Assembly (NCBI RefSeq): GCF_019393635.1
Contig: NC_057866.1
Span: forward strand, 226,761,359-226,825,358
Direction of reading: 5' to 3'
Length of the DNA: 64,000 nt
Source: Dromiciops gliroides
Lineage: Eukaryota; Chordata; Mammalia; Microbiotheria; Microbiotheriidae
The notes below the pieces were generated by a model that was not told the origin of the DNA, did no database searches, and was given only the letters and a program-made list of their open reading frames with translations. The position numbers and the translations under genes were made by a program. Position 1 is the stretch's first letter. Each line of letters begins with the position of its first letter. Of this stretch, positions 930-62,393 are shown piece by piece.

Positions 930-1198
930 GTTGGGAGGGAGTAAGCATTTATTAAGTACCTACCGTGTGTCAAGAACACTGCTAAATACTTTAGATATAT
1001 TATCTCATTTGATTGCCCTGAGAGGTGGGTGCTATTATTAACCCCATTTTGCAGTTGGGAAATTTGAGACACACAGAGGTTAAAACACCTTGCCCAGAGT
1101 AACCAATTTAGTTAGCTGTCTGAGGCCAGATTTGAACTTGTTTTTTTCTGACTTCAGTCTCAGTGTTCTTTATCCATTGTGCCACCTCGCTGCCTCTT
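930..1198 (-). repeat. MIR-like ancient SINE
   Basis: The text 'taagcatttattaagtacct', 'attaaccccattttgcagtt' and 'ccattgtgccacctcgctgc' is the diverged reverse complement of a MIR/THER-type CORE-SINE. It is heavily mutated and has no visible target duplication. Confidence 0.7.
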
Positions 1199-1828: not shown

Positions 1829-2576
1829 TATGGATAATGAAGTGAGAGTTTGAAATGTCTCTACTACATCTGTTTGGAGACAAATGAATAACCCAAGAGA
1901 CAGAGTTTCTGTATAATGAATACAAAAGTTATTAATTAGGCTAGCTGTTAATCAGGAAACTGATGGTCACTGGTTTCTTTTGGTAACCAAAGACACCTAA
2001 TGGAGATACCGAATGCCTTAATATACTTTTAAAATTTTTTGGTGAGGCAATGAGGGTTAAGTGACCTCCCCAGTGTCACACAGTTAGTGTCAAGTGTCTG
2101 AGGCTGGATTTGAACTCAGGTCCTCCTGAATCCAGGGCCAGTGCTTTATCCACTTCACTAGCTAACTTCACCCTACTTTAATATGCTTTTAGAAAAGAAG
2201 GGTGTCCTTGACAGGTGAAAATCCTGATTGGTGAATAATTAATGAGAGAGTGGGCATATTAATGAGGAAAATGGGCTAGAAGTCTTCAGCTCCTCCTGTG
2301 GCTTGATCATGAGTCTCAGCTGCCTCCAGCAGTCTGGACAGAGGAATCCATCTCTACCTAGACCACTGTGGTTTGTTTTCTCCTTCATGGGCTAGGTTAC
2401 CCTAGCCTCCATTAGAGGGGTGCAAGGGTGCTTTGAGGTTGGAATTCACCTAGATTAGATTCTATTTATACTCTAAACAGAAGTAAGGTCTTACAGTTGG
2501 GTGGAGTTCCACCTAAGATGGAGGAGCATATTGCCAGAGAATTTGGGCAATCTCATCAAAGCTAATGCCTTGCTTT
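1829..2576 (-). mobile_element. Older LTR, left part, split by provirus
   Basis: This stretch and 6828-6934 together resemble the LTR at 21273-21801. Shared pieces are 'gattggtgaataattaatga' versus 'gattggttaataatgagaaa' on the left, and an 'aataattg.ct..taatat' block followed by a 'ctca' end on the right. A CORE-SINE lies within it at about 2036-2167. The provirus at 2577-6827 inserted into this older LTR. The left edge is estimated to within about 20 bases. Confidence 0.6.
2036..2167 (-). mobile_element. CORE-SINE (Mar1/WSINE1 type)
   Basis: Reads 'ggtgaggcaatgagggttaa' to 'tttatccacttcactagcta', the reverse complement of the marsupial CORE-SINE with tail side first. It is nested in the older LTR. 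Confidence 0.85.
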
Positions 2577-3072
2577 TGTGATGTTTAAAATCTATATTGT
2601 GTGATCACCTTAAATTAGAAGCTTCAGCACCAGTCTTTGGGCATTAAACATTTATTAAAGCATACAGGTATTAACATGGAGTTCAGAAGACAAGGTCTAT
2701 CTAGCCTAGAGTTCCAGCCTGGTTGGGTTCTTCTCAAGTCCTCCTCCAGGATCCTGCTTTAATCAGGAACTCCCCAGCAAGCTGATTGTGGAATCCTTTT
2801 ATAGGTCTGGAACAGAGGCGGTTCTTACCCACTGCTTCAAGCTGATTGGTTGGCGTCATCCAAATCCATTGGTTTTGAAGGTGTTCTCAAGTTGAGTTCA
2901 CAGTTTAGCTTCTGAGAACAATTCCTTCTTAAGGGCTAGCCAGGTGTGATTACAATCCAGTTAACTTGAAGTAGGCTAATCAGCAGTCAATCACTCTCAC
3001 TTGATTCAATCAGTCTAGATTAATTTCCAAGTGGGTCTTTGAGTATCTGCTAAATCTCATTATTTCATCACA
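2577..3072 (-). mobile_element. 3' LTR of chimeric Gag provirus
   Basis: About 496 bp with perfect inverted ends TGTGATG...CATCACA. On the minus strand it carries a TATA box (TATAAAAG, complement at 2796-2803) and AATAAA (complement at 2651-2656), giving U3-R-U5 order. Aligned by eye to the LTR at 6163-6827 it shows about 20 substitutions and one 5-bp indel over some 490 bases. The outer flank 'cttt' (2573-2576) is repeated at 6828-6831 as a 4-bp target duplication. Confidence 0.93.
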
Positions 3073-3083
3073 TTCCCCCCTTT
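3073..3083 (-). other. Polypurine tract of the provirus
   Basis: On the minus strand AAAGGGGGGAA directly abuts the TG start of the 3' LTR. This is the expected place for plus-strand priming in a retrovirus, and it confirms the minus orientation. Confidence 0.85.
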
Positions 3084-4186
3084 GTTTCTTATAGGAACAG
3101 GTGTTCCTAGATGAAACAGTAAAAAATAATTGTCTTTGGAAGTCTTTTCTCAGTTCTCTTGTCTTCTTGGAGTGGGTAAGATGTCATCAGGAGGAAGCTG
3201 GATTCTGCTCTGGAAAACTGAGCTCGGGGCTCTGGACTGAAAAGCTGGATTCTCTTCTTTAACGGTTTCAATTGCTGGATTTTTTACTAAACTTTAGCAT
3301 AGTGTTGTCAATGATCAAATTTAATACATTCCATTACATTCCCTCCTTTATATAATAGAGGGTGTAGGTAGTTATGCAATCTATAACACTTCTTACCACC
3401 AAGTGTCTGGATCAAAGCCAAATTTAGTATGTGTTCATGACACCTGAAAAATGTTATGGAAAGGTTATCATACCACATCTCATGGTTTTTGAGACAGCAA
3501 GTGATTGTGCTAGGCCACAGGTGATTAGACTGAGTGAGACAAAAAGGAAACAAGTTCAGTTAAATTAGGTTATTTTAGGAGGGAGAGAGGAAGGAACCGG
3601 ACTGTGTCTAGCAATTGTGCTCTACATAGTTGCCATCATAAGCAAACCATGGCCTTAGTATACCTGTCTCTCCTCTTGTTGAACATATATTCTTTTCAGG
3701 GCCTGCATTAAACTTCAGAGGAAGTTAATCTCTGAAATGATGTTTCCATAATTCATAAATCTCTTATTAATTTCACCAAATATAGTATGATGGTAAAAAT
3801 GCATGCTATGCTGCATAACTTCAGTTTACAAAATTGAGTTAAAAAGAAAGCAAAAGAAACAAAAGTCAAAAACAAAGCAAAACCAAAATCAAAAACGAAA
3901 AGCAAAAGATTTGCTAAGCACTCTTTTGTGCTCTTAATGAACTTAAAGGTCTTTTCAATGCCTTTCAAAAAACAAACAAACAAACTAAAAAAGATGGTTT
4001 AAAGGAACAAAGGTTAAGTAGGGGTAGGGGAAAGGGATGGGGGAGATTGAGGTAGGCCAGAAAACCAGGCCATGTGCTTCAGTGGTTTACCTGCAGAAGG
4101 AAAAGCTTGTTAAAGGTAAGTTATTATATTGCTAGAGTTTGGCGTACACCACACTGTTTTAACTGACTCCCCAATTCTCTGCATAC
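3084..4186 (-). other. Unassigned 3' internal region of provirus
   Basis: About 1.1 kb between the OTUD3-like segment and the polypurine tract. I find no pol, env or accessory reading frame on the minus strand; the longest frames (3753-3983, 3308-3553) look like chance. It could be env debris, captured host 3' UTR or element-specific sequence. A pyrimidine-rich stretch followed by CAG|GTAAAC near 4092 on the minus strand resembles a splice acceptor, but nothing else supports it. Confidence 0.4.
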
Positions 4187-4390
4187 CAAAGTGGCAGGGG
4201 TTTCTGAATTATCATTGATTCTTCCAATGCTGTCATAATGTTCTTTATGGTAGAAAATATGGAGTTCTTTAGCATCGGCTTTGTCTGTGCCACAGATTTG
4301 TCATAGGGGCTTATTCAACTGATGAATGATTACATTAGCTGGTTCTATTTTGCAAAGGCTACAATTGCATTGTTCCCAACAAAAGTACTA
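4187..4390 (-). pseudogene. Captured OTUD3 OTU-domain fragment in provirus
   Basis: Conceptual translation of the minus strand gives blocks matching human OTUD3 as I remember it: NAIVAFA, then IIHQLN, then KELHI, EHYDS and INDNSE. OTUD3 is an OTU-family deubiquitinase. The motif EHYD holds the family's catalytic His; the upstream Asp/Cys part of the active site is not present here. The segment follows the N4BP2-like segment directly, with a junction about 4386-4392. It is broken by TAG (4345-4347), a one-base frame slip a few codons on, and TGA (4301-4303). Similarity ends near 4187. It looks like captured host coding sequence, intronless over this span. The match is from memory of the protein and needs an alignment. 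Confidence 0.82.
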
Positions 4391-4985
4391 GCTTTTTTTC
4401 AGTATTACTTTCAAGCACCCTGGTTTAATTTCAGAGAACCTGAAGTTGTAGCTTGTGAGGTATTTAATGACTGCTGGTTTGATTCTAGCAACTCCTCCTG
4501 GACTATGCTTTCCTCTTCCCATAATCACAGAGAGATACGGTTTACCACCATTCTGCTTATGCTCTTCAGTTTTTTGTTGCAATACAGTTATTAAATGATT
4601 TATGGCTTCATCTACGTGGAGTCCATGGAGGTCCAAAACATTCTTTGGTAGTAGGGAAGCACTGACTTTCTCAAATATCTGCACAGCAGCAAGATGGTTG
4701 GCTTCTCTCATCTTCTCCTTGTGGAGACTACCCTGCTGCACATAAAATGTGGCAACATTTTTTTTTCCCCATGCGATAAGCTGCATTTGTCTTGCTATGG
4801 CATTCTAATCTCTTTTGATGGTGAAGGACAGCCTCTGCCCTATAGTCATCATACTTAGAGGTTTTGTGTTGACCTTTAGATGCCTGACCAGAAAGCGCTG
4901 GTGCCAGAATGCTCTGTTTAGGCTTATTCTCCTCATTTGACTCAAAGACATAGGTGGCAACTTCCTTAAGCCTATCTATAGTCAT
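4388..4985 (-). pseudogene. Captured N4BP2 C-terminus (Smr domain) in provirus
   Basis: The minus-strand frames 4985-4728 and 4786-4388 match the C-terminal part of NEDD4-binding protein 2. In order: KYDDYRAEA, a helical stretch with ANHLAA and IFEKV, then the Smr domain with its LDLHG motif, the GRGKHS loop and a terminal GCLKVILK. Smr domains bind or nick nucleic acid; in N4BP2 the domain sits at the extreme C-terminus, as here. The first ~20 codons (MTIDRLKEVATYVFESNEE) look instead like the end of Gag capsid, so the gag/N4BP2 junction is around 4910-4930. A frame slip in the A-run at 4758-4766 splits it. The Smr part alone is open for about 120 codons, with both signature motifs kept. No introns are seen, consistent with capture from a spliced transcript. 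Confidence 0.88.
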
Positions 4986-4991
4986 ATTTTT

Positions 4992-5975
4992 CTAGTCTGG
5001 ACATTGTGTCAGAAAATATTTGCGGATTTCTGGCAACGAATTGTAAACAAATGTGTTAAGTACAATATAGGAATCTCTCAAATCTAATGGATCCAATCTG
5101 GTGTACTGTCTAGTGGCCTCACAAAGTCTATCATAAAATCTGTTTGGTCTTTCATTAGCCTCCTGAGGTAGGCTTAAGAATTTCTGCCAGTTTTCAGGTT
5201 TTCTAGAGCAAGATTCCATCCCCTTCAGAAACGTTTCCCTAGCGTCTTTTAATTCTTGGAATTGCCTGTCGTTATTATAATTCCACTCTGGATCCTTTAG
5301 AGGCCACGGCACAACAGCCTGACCCTTCGCAACAAGGGCATTTCCTGTTGAGATAATATCTGCAATCTCAGTCGGGGATAGTAAAGTTTCCATAAGGCAA
5401 GTAACATCAGCCCAAGTGGGTTGATATGCATCAAATATAGTCCTTAACTGTGAAATTACAGTGTTTGGATTTTTCTCAAAACTAGGGATGATTGTTTTCC
5501 ATGCACTTAAGTCACTTGGTTTAAAGGGGCTATGTTTTCTGACTTGAATTGGCGCTTCTTTTTTGGTATGTTCTATAGTTTCCTGCAGGGGGAGCAGTTT
5601 CTGCTGATCTGATTCTAAACTTGGATCATCTCTAGTAGAAGGAGCCATCTTGGTGTCTCTCTCCATTTGTGACAATTTCCCCCATATTATAACAATGATA
5701 ATAGCAAAAATGAAATCCTTACTCATATGAACGATGGATGTGGTATTAAAAGGTATTTCAATTGCAGGCATAAAATTTCTACTTATATTAAATGTATTTT
5801 CCCAAAGATTCACACTTAGACTATTATACCAAAAACTTTTTGCTGCCTGAATGAGGAAAAAACCAATAATGTTATGAAGGACCATTGAGTAAACTATTCC
5901 TCTAAGTCGGGACATTATGCTGTCCCAATACATTCCAATGAGAAAAATCAAAGGGATAGCTGAATATTCAAGCAT
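4992..5975 (-). pseudogene. Gag-like ORF: hydrophobic leader plus gamma-type capsid
   Basis: An open frame of 327 codons. Residues ~149-327 are a retroviral capsid of gammaretrovirus/ERV1 type: PFKPSDL start, QPTWAD, WPLKDPEWNY, and a major-homology-like block (QEANERPNRFYDRLCEA, ~271-287) before YTRLDP. Residues 1-110 do not resemble a matrix domain. They contain hydrophobic segments at ~5-16, 27-43 and 87-98, and two N-glycosylation sequons (63-65, 77-79). A Met at 104 lies after the last hydrophobic stretch and could start a plain Gag. The frame ends at TAG (4992-4994) but continues downstream in the same frame into capsid-like sequence and then N4BP2. The stop could be a mutation or, as in MLV Gag-Pol, a read-through site; no read-through signal was identified. 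Nucleocapsid zinc knuckles are not seen. Confidence 0.88.
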
Positions 5976-6141
5976 GTTGCCCTTTAAACTGGGCTGGCTT
6001 TTCTGTTTAAAGCAAGGCTTTTAGAGGCTTAAAGCAAGGGAGATTAGGCAAATGAGGGAAAGTCAATGGGGGGATTTAAGAGAAAGTGCACTAAATTAGG
6101 TGGCTCTTGGCCAAACTAGGGAGAGTGGGAGGGTCCTTAAG

Positions 6142-6159
6142 GTCCCTTTGTGGTTGCCA
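6142..6159 (-). other. Primer binding site, tRNA-Arg-like
   Basis: Three bases inside the 5' LTR the minus strand reads TGGCAACCACAAAGGGAC. This is close to the complement of the 3' end of tRNA-Arg(UCG) as I recall it, with one or two mismatches. The TGG start and the spacing are typical of retroviral primer sites. Confidence 0.75.
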
Positions 6160-6162
6160 AAC

Positions 6163-6827
6163 TGTGATGTGTAAAATCTATGTTGTGTGATTGCCTTAAA
6201 TTAGAAGCTTCAGTGCCAGTCTTTGGGCATTAAACATTTATTAAAGCATACAGGTATTAACATGGAGTTCAGAAGGTCTATCTAGCCTAGAGTTCCAGCC
6301 TGGTTGGGTTCTTCTCAAGTCCTCCTCCAGGATCCTGCTTCTATCAGGAACTCCCCAGCAAGCAGATTGTGGAAACCTTTTATAGGTCTGGAACAGAGGT
6401 GGTCCTTACACACTGCTTCAAGCTGATTGGTTGGTGTCATCCAAATCCATTGGTTTTGAAGGTGTTCTCAAGTTGAGTTCACAGTCTAGCTTCTGAGAAT
6501 AATACCTTCTTTTTATTATTATTATTATTTTTTAGTGAGGCAATTGGGGTTAAGTGACTTGCCCAGGGTCACACAGCTAGCAAGTGTTAAGTGTCGAGGT
6601 CGGACTTGAACTCAGGTACTCATGACTCCAGGGCAGGTGCTCCATCCACTGCACCACTTAGCTGCCCCGAGAATAATACCTTCTTAAGGGCTAGCCAGGT
6701 GTGATTACAATCCAGTTAACTTGAAGTAGGCTAATCAGCAGTCAATCACTCTCACTTGATTCAATCAGTCTAGATTAATTTCCAGGTGGGTCTTTGAGTA
6801 TCTGCTAAATCTCATTATTTCATCAAA
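6163..6827 (-). mobile_element. 5' LTR of chimeric Gag provirus
   Basis: Partner of 2577-3072, with the same TGTGATG start and CATCAAA at the far end (one change from CATCACA). The TATA complement is at 6377-6384 and the AATAAA complement at 6237-6242. It is longer only because a CORE-SINE inserted at 6512-6668. Confidence 0.93.
6512..6668 (-). mobile_element. CORE-SINE inside the 5' LTR
   Basis: Bounded by a perfect 17-bp target duplication 'gagaataataccttctt' (6495-6511 and 6669-6685). The partner LTR lacks it, so it landed after the provirus integrated. Confidence 0.95.
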
Positions 6828-6934
6828 CTTTCAGAATGACATAAGGGGGCTGACCCCTGCATGAGGAAATAAAGAGAAAAAACCCTTAATCCTAATAATT
6901 GGCTATTAATATAATAGAAAAATAATTTCCCTCA
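6828..6934 (-). mobile_element. Older LTR, right part
   Basis: Resumes the LTR interrupted at 2576. The block 'ataattggctattaatataa' and the 'aaaaataatttccctca' end parallel 21762-21801. Confidence 0.55.
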
Positions 6935-60280: not shown

Positions 60281-61063
60281 GCTCTCACACAGGGAGCTGC
60301 AGATACAGTCGGGTAGCAGCTCCTCCAGTCTCGCGACTGGTGTTCTTTTTTTGGGGGGGTCATTGCCTTTCTTTCCTCATCTATCCTCTCCTTTTTGCTA
60401 CCCTGATTTTATTTTGCTTCTTTTTTGCATTTTCCTTCCCCCCTTCTCCACTTTTTTCCTCTCTTTTTTTGCGTTGAGCTGAATCAGCGTAGGAAAACAC
60501 ACAGCCCAGCCTGTGTTGAAACCCAAAAAGCCAATTAATAATAAAAAAGCGAGAACAAGCCTCGCCGTGACAGGTTGAGCTGGTCAGTATCGGATGAGAG
60601 CCAGTGCCGGGGCTCCTTGGGGCACTGCCTGCTCCCCAGGCGCCGGGACCCCTGCAGTCCCCGGGGGCCAGCTGCTCTGCGGACCACTCCCGGGCCACTG
60701 TGCCCAAGAGATACTCGGAGTGGACCCGGAGGTTCTGTGGGACTTGGTCTCCTTTAGAATTCTTACTCCCGCCGCAGCTCCCTCCTGCTAGCTGAGGGTG
60801 CTTTGGGCTCACTGCTGGGTGGGGTGAGCTAGGAAGAGGATGCAGTTTCTGGGCTCTGAGACGATCTAGCCGAGGACCATTTATTCTCTTCTCCCTGCCT
60901 CCGTGGTTCAGCAAACTAGCGCTGCAAACTCGACCTGAACTTTGGCGGAAGCCACCCTTTCCCTTTTTGTTTGATTTTTTTCTCTTCCTCTTATTTTCAA
61001 ATTATTCGTGGAGGTGCTAGGGCCGGAGTGAAAAATCAAACGGCCCAAACCGCCCCCCCCATC

Positions 61064-61360
61064 ATGCTGGGCCAGAACCAAGTAGGGAAGGGAGGACGTG
61101 ATGGGGCCGAGAAGAAGCCCAGCTCTTCTGCGGGGCAGCGCTGCCTCCGGACTTCGGCCCCTTGCTCCCTGCTGCCGGCTGTGCTGTCCGTGATGTGTGT
61201 GGTTGCCTGCTTGTACCTGGGGGTGAAAACCAACGAGCTGCAGGCGAGAATCTCGGCCATCGAGGCAGCCAAAGGGGAACTTCCTTCTCAGCTCCTGCCG
61301 GCTTCCTTGGATCAGTTGGAAGTAATGATGCAAGAAAAAATGGACCGGCTTCTGGCTCAG
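61064..61360 (+). CDS. COL25A1: COL25A1 coding exon 1 (N-terminus of collagen XXV)
   Basis: Encodes the first 99 residues of a type II membrane collagen, the precursor of CLAC found in amyloid plaques and needed for motor-axon targeting of muscle. Layout: short basic cytoplasmic tail (1-33, with KGGRDG and KKPSSS), one transmembrane segment (about 34-54, SLLPAVLSVMCVVACLYLGV), then a juxtamembrane coiled coil starting KTNELQARI and running to MDRLLAQ (99). Human COL25A1 as I recall it has the same LYLGVKTN.LQARI and ERLLAQ landmarks at equal spacing. The frame is open 31 codons further upstream; I chose the ATG at 61064 because it gives the conserved length and has A at -3. The exon ends in phase 0 at CAG|gtgcga. 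Expression is expected in neurons and developing muscle. Confidence 0.95.
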
Positions 61361-62393
61361 GTGCGATGGAAGCGTTGGTCATGAGGGGGTGAAACCTCTC
61401 ACTGACAGGGGTTGCGCCTCGCTCCAACTAGCATGTAGCATGTACGTGTGTGCGTTTGTCTGGGCAGGACCTGGTCTGGAAATCTTAGTGTGTAACGTTA
61501 TGTGTCCAAGTATCTCTGGTCCATTCAGTCACCAGAGCGAATGTATGCAGGCGTGCATGGGTGAGCGTGGGAGGGAAGTCGGAAAGTGCCCAGGGTTGGC
61601 TCTTGATTTAGTCATTTAGACTAAAATGCGTTTCTCTGCTCTCCAATCCACGGCAGTTATTCCATTCAGAGATTCTATCTGTATATTTCAATGACAAATC
61701 AGTACGGAAAAGATTAAGATGTTAATATGTTAATATTTCTTTAAAAGAGGAAATTTCCTCATACTTAAATCATAAAATATGCCAAAATGCCTTATGCTTA
61801 GTGCTCGTAAAGAAAAACACACACACACACACATAAGCAAACCTGTATGTGTTGTTTTAAGGGCCCTAGTACTTGGGAGTTTTATGACTGCAGAAGCCTT
61901 TGAGTTGATATTTGAAAAAAAGTTCCAGCTTATGGCTACTGGAGCTGAGGTTGGGTTGAGAACATTGTTGGTACTTGGACATTATTCTCTTGCGATAGAG
62001 AGTTTTAGTCGTCAGCACTCTGCTACTAAACACTTCAAAGTAGTTGACCTTCAGAAAGAAAATGTTGTCTGTTTCTTCATCATGTGTTTTCCCCAGAGAA
62101 CTGCAACATCTTGGTTCCAGGTTCTGTCCACTGCACATACTGGAAGTGGGGGAAGGGGATAGGACCGATGTTATACAAGTCCAGCAGCCTTGATAACATT
62201 TCAATTGTCATTTTCTTTTTTTAGGGCTGGGTTACTGTTACCTCTTGACAGAAGTCCAAGTACAGAAGTTAACTGTTAGTTATGCAGGCTATCAAATAGT
62301 GGCAAATCCCCTTTAAGCCCAAAGGGCCGCCAAATAATTCTATTCATAAAAGAACTGTTAAGCTATTGTTAATAGCTCCTCTTTCCCCCACAG
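61361..62393 (+). other. COL25A1: COL25A1 intron 1
   Basis: GT-AG intron of 1,033 bases with a good pyrimidine tract (ctcctctttcccccacag) at the acceptor. Contains a short (AC)n run near 61817-61834. No repeat copy is recognised, in contrast to the intergenic region. Confidence 0.88.

Follow-up and report, generated by a model that had tools for sequence, protein, structure and literature searches.

The stretch analysed here, a 64,000-nt window of the Dromiciops gliroides genome (GCF_019393635.1, NC_057866.1:226,761,359-226,825,358; positions follow the numbering of the window), contains on its minus strand an element in which a pair of long terminal repeats (LTRs) and a 4-bp target duplication enclose a retroviral capsid (CA), a DUF1771-Smr unit related to the host protein N4BP2 and a fragment resembling the deubiquitinase OTUD3 (Table 1). 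An earlier note on this DNA had reported the paired LTRs, a CTTT duplication, a primer site and a polypurine tract, all of which were found where it had placed them, and its call of a gammaretrovirus-type capsid, an N4BP2-like Smr domain and an OTUD3-like fragment on the minus strand was confirmed with Pfam and PDB. The capsid matched Gag_p30 in Pfam and gammaretroviral CA structures in PDB. The Smr open reading frame (ORF; 4388-4786) matched human N4BP2 (PDB 2vkc, E = 9.3e-60) as well as DUF1771 and Smr in Pfam, and the OTUD3-like sequence corresponded to two adjoining, collinear pieces of PDB 4bou (E = 4.2e-16 and 0.011). These matches go beyond chance, since relatives of the element are present in the same genome.

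The Gag frame, read from position 5975, encodes a 116-aa hydrophobic front followed by the Gag_p30 capsid. After an in-frame stop, the capsid frame continues into DUF1771, and a frame change inside DUF1771 leads to the Smr ORF. The Gag front (5627-5975) had no match in Pfam or PDB and no recognisable matrix domain; it was predicted to form two helices by AlphaFold run on the single sequence without an alignment (predicted local distance difference test score, pLDDT, 73.8). The OTU fragment lacks the half with the catalytic Cys and its frame is broken, so that Cys and His do not occur together in one frame. As the note had stated, neither pol nor env was recognisable: the scanned 3' pieces, and the 161-aa and 127-aa frames of the 3' region, gave only matches below the cut-off, and the six frames of the element contained no motif for reverse transcriptase (RT), protease or a zinc knuckle. 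NCBIfam gave no match above the cut-off, the leader RNA fold was not unusual (z = 0.22), and viral contigs scanned with the CA, Smr and transmembrane (TM) pieces contained no relatives.

Table 1. Features of the window element.
Feature	Position	Strand	Remarks
Target duplication, 5' side of the element	6828..6831	.	CTTT, identical to 2573-2576, by eye
5' LTR, split by a short interspersed nuclear element (SINE; about 6512-6668) that has its own 15-bp duplication	6163..6827	-
Primer-binding-site-like TGG 18-mer	6142..6159	-
Leader	5976..6162	-	77-95% identity in the 23/31 sister loci in which it was found
N-terminal Gag part, two hydrophobic segments with two N-glycosylation sequons between them (sequons by eye)	5627..5975	-
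Capsid, gammaretrovirus-type (Gag_p30)	5019..5516	-	Pfam E = 9.8e-23, and PDB
CA end and linker, in-frame stop in the window copy	4859..4994	-	linker like the CA-nucleocapsid linker of the parental family (by eye)
N4BP2-derived segment: DUF1771 4667-4853, Smr 4448-4636	4397..4858	-	Pfam, PDB 2vkc, host exons
OTUD3-like fragment, start out of the Smr frame; two stops, one frame change	4184..4396	-	scar of the parental Pol-OTU, as shown by sister copies
3' region	3088..4183	-	counterparts in L016, L020 and L028 match the parental pol end and post-pol stretch
Polypurine tract	3073..3087	-	adjoins the 3' LTR
3' LTR with CCAAT, TATAAA and AATAAA signals	2577..3072	-
Target duplication, 3' side	2573..2576	.	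CTTT

The element was assigned to the class I endogenous retroviruses (ERVs) by its capsid, its 4-bp duplication and its TG..CA LTRs; no RT or integrase of its own was found. The LTR ends form a 7-bp inverted repeat, from which a single outer base of the 5' LTR deviates. The two LTRs differ at 20 of 504 aligned bases (Kimura two-parameter distance, K2P, 0.041; about 17 bases flanking the SINE are counted twice). The window copy is a decayed member of a multi-copy family of LTR elements of class I type that lack pol, hereafter Gag-Smr.

A search of the 3.3-Gb genome of the same species with the Smr ORF yielded 38 matches: one was the window itself, 31 were other loci and three were second matches within these, while the rest comprised two exons of the host and a single fragment. 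We retrieved all 31 sister loci and scored their parts by DNA match to pieces of the window. DUF1771 (partial), Smr, the OTU piece and the 3' region were found in all of them, CA in 30, the TM part and the leader in 23 each, and a window-like LTR in 11. An uninterrupted TM-Gag-DUF1771-Smr frame of 526-571 aa, counted from the first Met, was present in 13, and L026 contains a 787-aa open frame (minus strand, 2507-4867) with another Gag front, in which a partial and a full Gag_p30 precede DUF1771-Smr. No zinc knuckle was present in the 13 intact frames, and the N-terminal Gag part of the window and of L016 had no Pfam match. At their start the intact frames encode two or three hydrophobic segments, carry 1-3 sequons and lack a Met-Gly beginning; this may be a membrane-inserted Gag without a matrix domain. 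These pol-less, multi-copy sister loci support the earlier note's description of a defective element of the type that depends on a helper.

LTR pairs were detected in 26 of the 31 sister loci (not in L023, L031, L038, L040 and L041) and in the window; the pair of L034 (119 bases) is doubtful, and that of L027 includes an additional, more diverged piece of 71 bases. K2P over the longest aligned piece was at most 0.01 in 11 of these 27 loci, with zero substitutions in L016 and L028. An exact 4-bp target duplication (4/4) flanked 14 of 24 testable sequences, as compared to none of 552 mismatched pairings, although the script could shift the ends by about 12 bases and the mismatched control had no such freedom. 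The sequences scoring below 4/4 were the window, L012, L017, L021, L024-L027, L034 and L036 (3/4 in L025 and L036); the CTTT of the window was missed by the script because the outer LTR end differs, and was read by eye. Where the duplication is 4/4, the locus is 4.1-4.9 kb long. Given the near-identical LTR pairs and exact target duplications, the Gag-Smr family moved very recently, and the window copy is older. Two further arrangements were seen: L023 contains an additional OTU-like piece with 3' region (930-1115, minus strand), as though the element had been partly duplicated, and L010 (C1:239018000-239020500) a 72-base match to the N4BP2 Smr near 100 bases of LTR in the same orientation.

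The host N4BP2 gene was located on contig C6, and its exons matched the Smr segment, a comparison that the earlier note had proposed. Three N4BP2 exon pieces in L028, L016 and the window were 92-98% identical to the host, and for the last exon L016 matched perfectly across 45 bases, while L028 and the window matched over a longer stretch at about 80%. Four host exons are joined without introns in the three aligned sequences, as they are in 20 copies open over 153 codons, which identifies a spliced N4BP2 mRNA as the source. The 5' junction lies within an exon and the 3' junction at the last N4BP2 codon; the host stop is gone and neither 3'UTR nor poly(A) follows. Both junctions, whose recurrence at other loci had also been put forward as a check, are identically placed in the 11 copies displayed and in the window, and this suggests a single N4BP2 capture. 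Three amino-acid differences from host N4BP2 are common to all 20 open copies. We regard the anatomy and origin of the Gag-Smr elements described here as close to certain.

A search with the CA piece returned 4212 first-look candidates; all of the 150 that were scored matched, many with equal scores. The copy number of the family to which we refer as parental is thus a lower bound, and the 150 include the window and 13 or more of the Gag-Smr loci retrieved above. Open frames at the scored matches were mostly about 350-500 aa. Four of six parent-type loci (L046, L049, L050 and L051) had a related linker and a CX2CX4HX4C zinc knuckle behind CA, while L047 and L048 were interrupted. A pol frame with protease and RT motifs and a Pfam match to RVT_1 follows the Gag stop of L049 in the same frame; gag and pol are open but offset in L050, the LTRs of which are identical over 507 bases, and pol is interrupted in L051. 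This genome thus contains gag and pol frames that are open. The parental element appears to be without env, as judged from open frames alone, since no frame of more than 144 aa was listed ahead of the LTR in L052. The parent-type locus L047 has no Smr, and its shortened knuckle runs into sequence resembling the 3' region; it is perhaps another pol-less derivative.

The pol frame of L050 encodes an integrase core and a murine leukaemia virus (MLV)-type integrase C-terminal domain, and ends in a complete OTU domain (6139-6738) with Cys and His motifs, the closest PDB match of which is OTUD3 (E = 1.7e-59). The similarity to human OTUD3 suggests an OTU of host type. Among six further stretches taken at a guessed offset, the full OTU was uninterrupted in L053 (part of L049), L055 (part of L046) and L057, split in L054 and unmatched in L056 and L058. 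The ratio of nonsynonymous to synonymous changes among four intact parental copies was 0.08-0.27 in the five pairs where it was defined, with few changes. The Pol-OTU of the parental ERV may deserve to be treated as a separate finding. The OTU piece of the Gag-Smr elements aligns with the OTU end of parental pol, and the piece in the window is the 3' scar of the parental Pol-OTU. Of the two host mRNA captures behind Gag that had been proposed, spliced N4BP2 fused to Gag stands, but the OTU came from the end of the parental Pol.

From the leader to the end of CA, the identity of L016 is 98.6-99.6% with L049, L050 and L051, and 91-95% with L046. Its 5' LTR is 87-92% identical to the 5' LTRs of these four loci, and in comparison with L052 the identity is 97% for the LTR and 97% across 1284 bases of the 3' region. 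Because L016 is near-identical to the parent on both sides and the OTU piece aligns with the parental OTU end, the N4BP2 sequence stands in for the parental stretch that begins at the nucleocapsid (NC) and reaches midway into the OTU. In L016, L028, L033 and L026, differing Gag fronts are followed by linker-DUF1771-Smr cassettes that closely resemble one another, which we read as repeated recombination of the cassette with current helper Gags. The elements are pol-less and multi-copy, and the cis regions of L016 are near-identical to those of an autonomous relative; very probably, they are satellites in which N4BP2 has taken the place of NC and of almost the whole Pol.

To quantify constraint on the captured segment, we compared the DUF1771-Smr part of the window and its 31 sister loci; in 20 of these 32 sequences it was open and free of indels. 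The ratio of nonsynonymous to synonymous differences per site (pN/pS) was 0.29 between two ten-copy subgroups, one with a stop right after the last N4BP2 codon and the other with a stop a few codons later. The nonsynonymous count was low in six chosen copy pairs (P = 0.0004 to 0.046), and two of the four tested comparisons of copies with host N4BP2 were significant. A codon model estimated the nonsynonymous to synonymous rate ratio (omega) to about 0.40 for Smr (likelihood-ratio test, LRT, 15.7; 13.0 without the host) and 0.25 for CA (LRT 75.6; 13/14 open sequences, equal length), whereas the value for the OTU piece was 0.53 and not significant (LRT 2.65; 12 sequences, 8 distinct). The selection analysis suggested in the earlier note thus detected constraint on the Smr part, and no significant constraint on the OTU part. 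Divergence in the six pairs was 12-13% for the OTU scar versus 4-6% for Smr. The DUF1771-Smr unit is under purifying selection.

The unit is of the N4BP2 type, with DUF1771 and Smr and the motifs LDLHG and GRG, both retained in all 20 open copies, and it may cleave RNA. The counterparts of residues D1692, H1694 and R1731 of N4BP2, named in passages of eLife.49117, lie in these two motifs. Our explanation is that the Gag-Smr elements are pol-less satellites, in which DUF1771-Smr from spliced N4BP2 replaces NC, and that they are mobilised by the Gag-Pol-OTU relative; we assign it a probability of roughly 0.7. From the anatomy, the Pol of the relative would act in trans, Gag-Smr would co-assemble with helper Gag via CA, and the Smr unit would supply the RNA contact formerly given by NC, its RNA-cutting or ribosome-binding activity probably being retained. 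For the single step in which Smr works as an NC substitute, the odds are about even.

Several observations weigh against this explanation. The Gag-Smr elements are known here from sequence alone, and the full frame is missing in 18 of the 31 sister loci. The NC piece of L049 was not scored by Pfam, so that the NC call is based on the CX2CX4HX4C motif. Comparisons with host N4BP2 were not significant for L016 (omega 0.52, P = 0.19) and L012 (omega 0.38, P = 0.07), and the OTU control is short and likewise has an omega below 1, though not significantly so. Transition bias was absent from the codon model (kappa 1), and this may depress omega; in addition, omega in the fixed-omega runs behind the LRTs was taken from the command as set, being absent from the output. 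The single-sequence AlphaFold model of Smr was poor (pLDDT 37.9).

A different use of the same domain, which we consider unlikely, would be that of a natural capsid-targeted nuclease: Gag-Smr inside helper particles would cut helper or host RNA, making the element an interfering satellite or a retained restriction device. Engineered capsid-nuclease fusions exist (PMC5035972, in part), satellite CA is near-identical to helper CA, and the Smr Asp, His and Arg positions corresponding to the three named N4BP2 residues are unchanged in the 20 open copies; a nuclease carried in the particle would, however, endanger the RNA of the satellite itself, and yet the satellite has multiplied. Somewhat less likely again, N4BP2 may be a passenger, swapped in for NC and pol by a template-switching accident, in which case mobility would depend solely on signals in cis and on proteins of the helper, and an open frame would reflect no more than youth or an aid to RNA stability. 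An abundant helper could provide all proteins and many loci are broken, but missense changes in Smr are constrained while the adjoining OTU scar is two- to threefold more diverged with an omega indistinguishable from 1, and the Smr frame has been retained behind differing Gag fronts.

The single Gag-Smr-OTU polyprotein proposed in the earlier note, formed by two captures behind Gag, is very improbable. The OTU similarity is uninterrupted in two of the 20 copies read (L020 and L023), though in a frame that differs from that of Smr; in all 20 it begins out of the Smr frame, which is stopped beforehand, and the indel that puts part of the OTU into the Smr frame in L012 and L031 is later and lies downstream of the stop. 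Because of this stop, and because the Pol of L050 ends in a whole OTU, the OTU was not captured behind Gag; the fusion is Gag-DUF1771-Smr, and the polyprotein was rejected for the sampled copies. An assembly join or nested processed pseudogenes, of negligible probability and with no observation in their favour, were rejected since the junctions are common to sister copies, being identical at many loci on several contigs, and since the captured sequence stops with the final codon of N4BP2 and includes neither 3'UTR nor poly(A).

The presence of both an N4BP2-type Smr and an OTUD3-type OTU in one ERV lineage also permits a tentative reading in terms of ribosome quality control. Cue2, the yeast homologue of N4BP2, is the No-Go-Decay nuclease, whose SMR domain cuts mRNA at stalled ribosomes; cleavage was tested for Cue2 and not for N4BP2 itself in the passages concerned (eLife.49117). 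According to parts of eLife.54023, OTUD3 strips ZNF598-dependent ubiquitin from the 40S subunit, raises readthrough of stalls and is seen in 40S fractions; readthrough rose to some extent with inactive OTUD3 too, and the review letters mention a multiple knockdown that was without effect. A lineage with two host-type ribosome-collision genes, Pol-OTU in the parent and Smr in the satellite, might tolerate or exploit stalling on its own RNA, with Smr doubling as the NC replacement, but we hold this to be rather doubtful. The shared pathway could be a coincidence.

Elsewhere in the window, an open frame at 60971-61384 (+) had no Pfam match; we take it to resemble the N-terminus of a transmembrane collagen.

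Capture of host genes by retroviruses is already known. Acutely transforming retroviruses carry gag-host fusions, have lost pol and require a helper; unlike these, the Gag-Smr elements are endogenous and repeatedly amplified, and in place of a growth-control gene they carry an Smr unit from N4BP2. A closer likeness is found in crocodilian ERVs, for which sections of PMC4299795 report captured host mRNA (KIT-ligand, nectin3), an ORF under purifying selection and, in the nectin3 case, loss of env. The crocodilian genes encode ligands or receptors, with KIT-ligand acquired without loss of a viral domain and nectin3 replacing env (PMC4299795, in part), whereas in Gag-Smr a domain of RNA-nuclease type replaces NC within Gag and the Pol of the relative bears an OTU. 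The marsupial gammaretrovirus-like ERVs MEGrv 1-3 are, like Gag-Smr, class I ERVs with identical LTRs in some copies; the clades listed in PMC11334065 measure 7.3-9.5 kb, in contrast to the 4.1-4.9 kb of the Gag-Smr loci above, and by term search neither N4BP2, Smr and OTUD3 nor the word capture occurs in its main text. The fusions of capsid-targeted viral inactivation, as outlined in PMC5035972, similarly join a capsid protein to a nuclease-type domain, but they are engineered, whereas Gag-Smr is natural and is described from DNA only. The best literature matches listed, mostly from outside subscription journals, reported no Gag-N4BP2 or Pol-OTU ERV, and neither did term searches of PMC11334065 and PMC4299795, with no search aimed at an OTU on Pol; in one paper that mentions both N4BP2 and endogenous retroviruses, the name refers to N4bp2l2, a neighbouring gene. 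Nor did the listed matches include a recently active satellite in which a host RNA-nuclease-type domain replaces NC, beside a Pol-OTU relative.

The Gag-Smr elements offer a natural test of which tasks NC has to perform and, together with the parental family, of how satellites and helpers evolve by recombination. Gag-Smr and Pol-OTU elements may also tamper with ribosome quality control, and as a pair they provide a natural test of whether retroelements target ribosome-collision surveillance.

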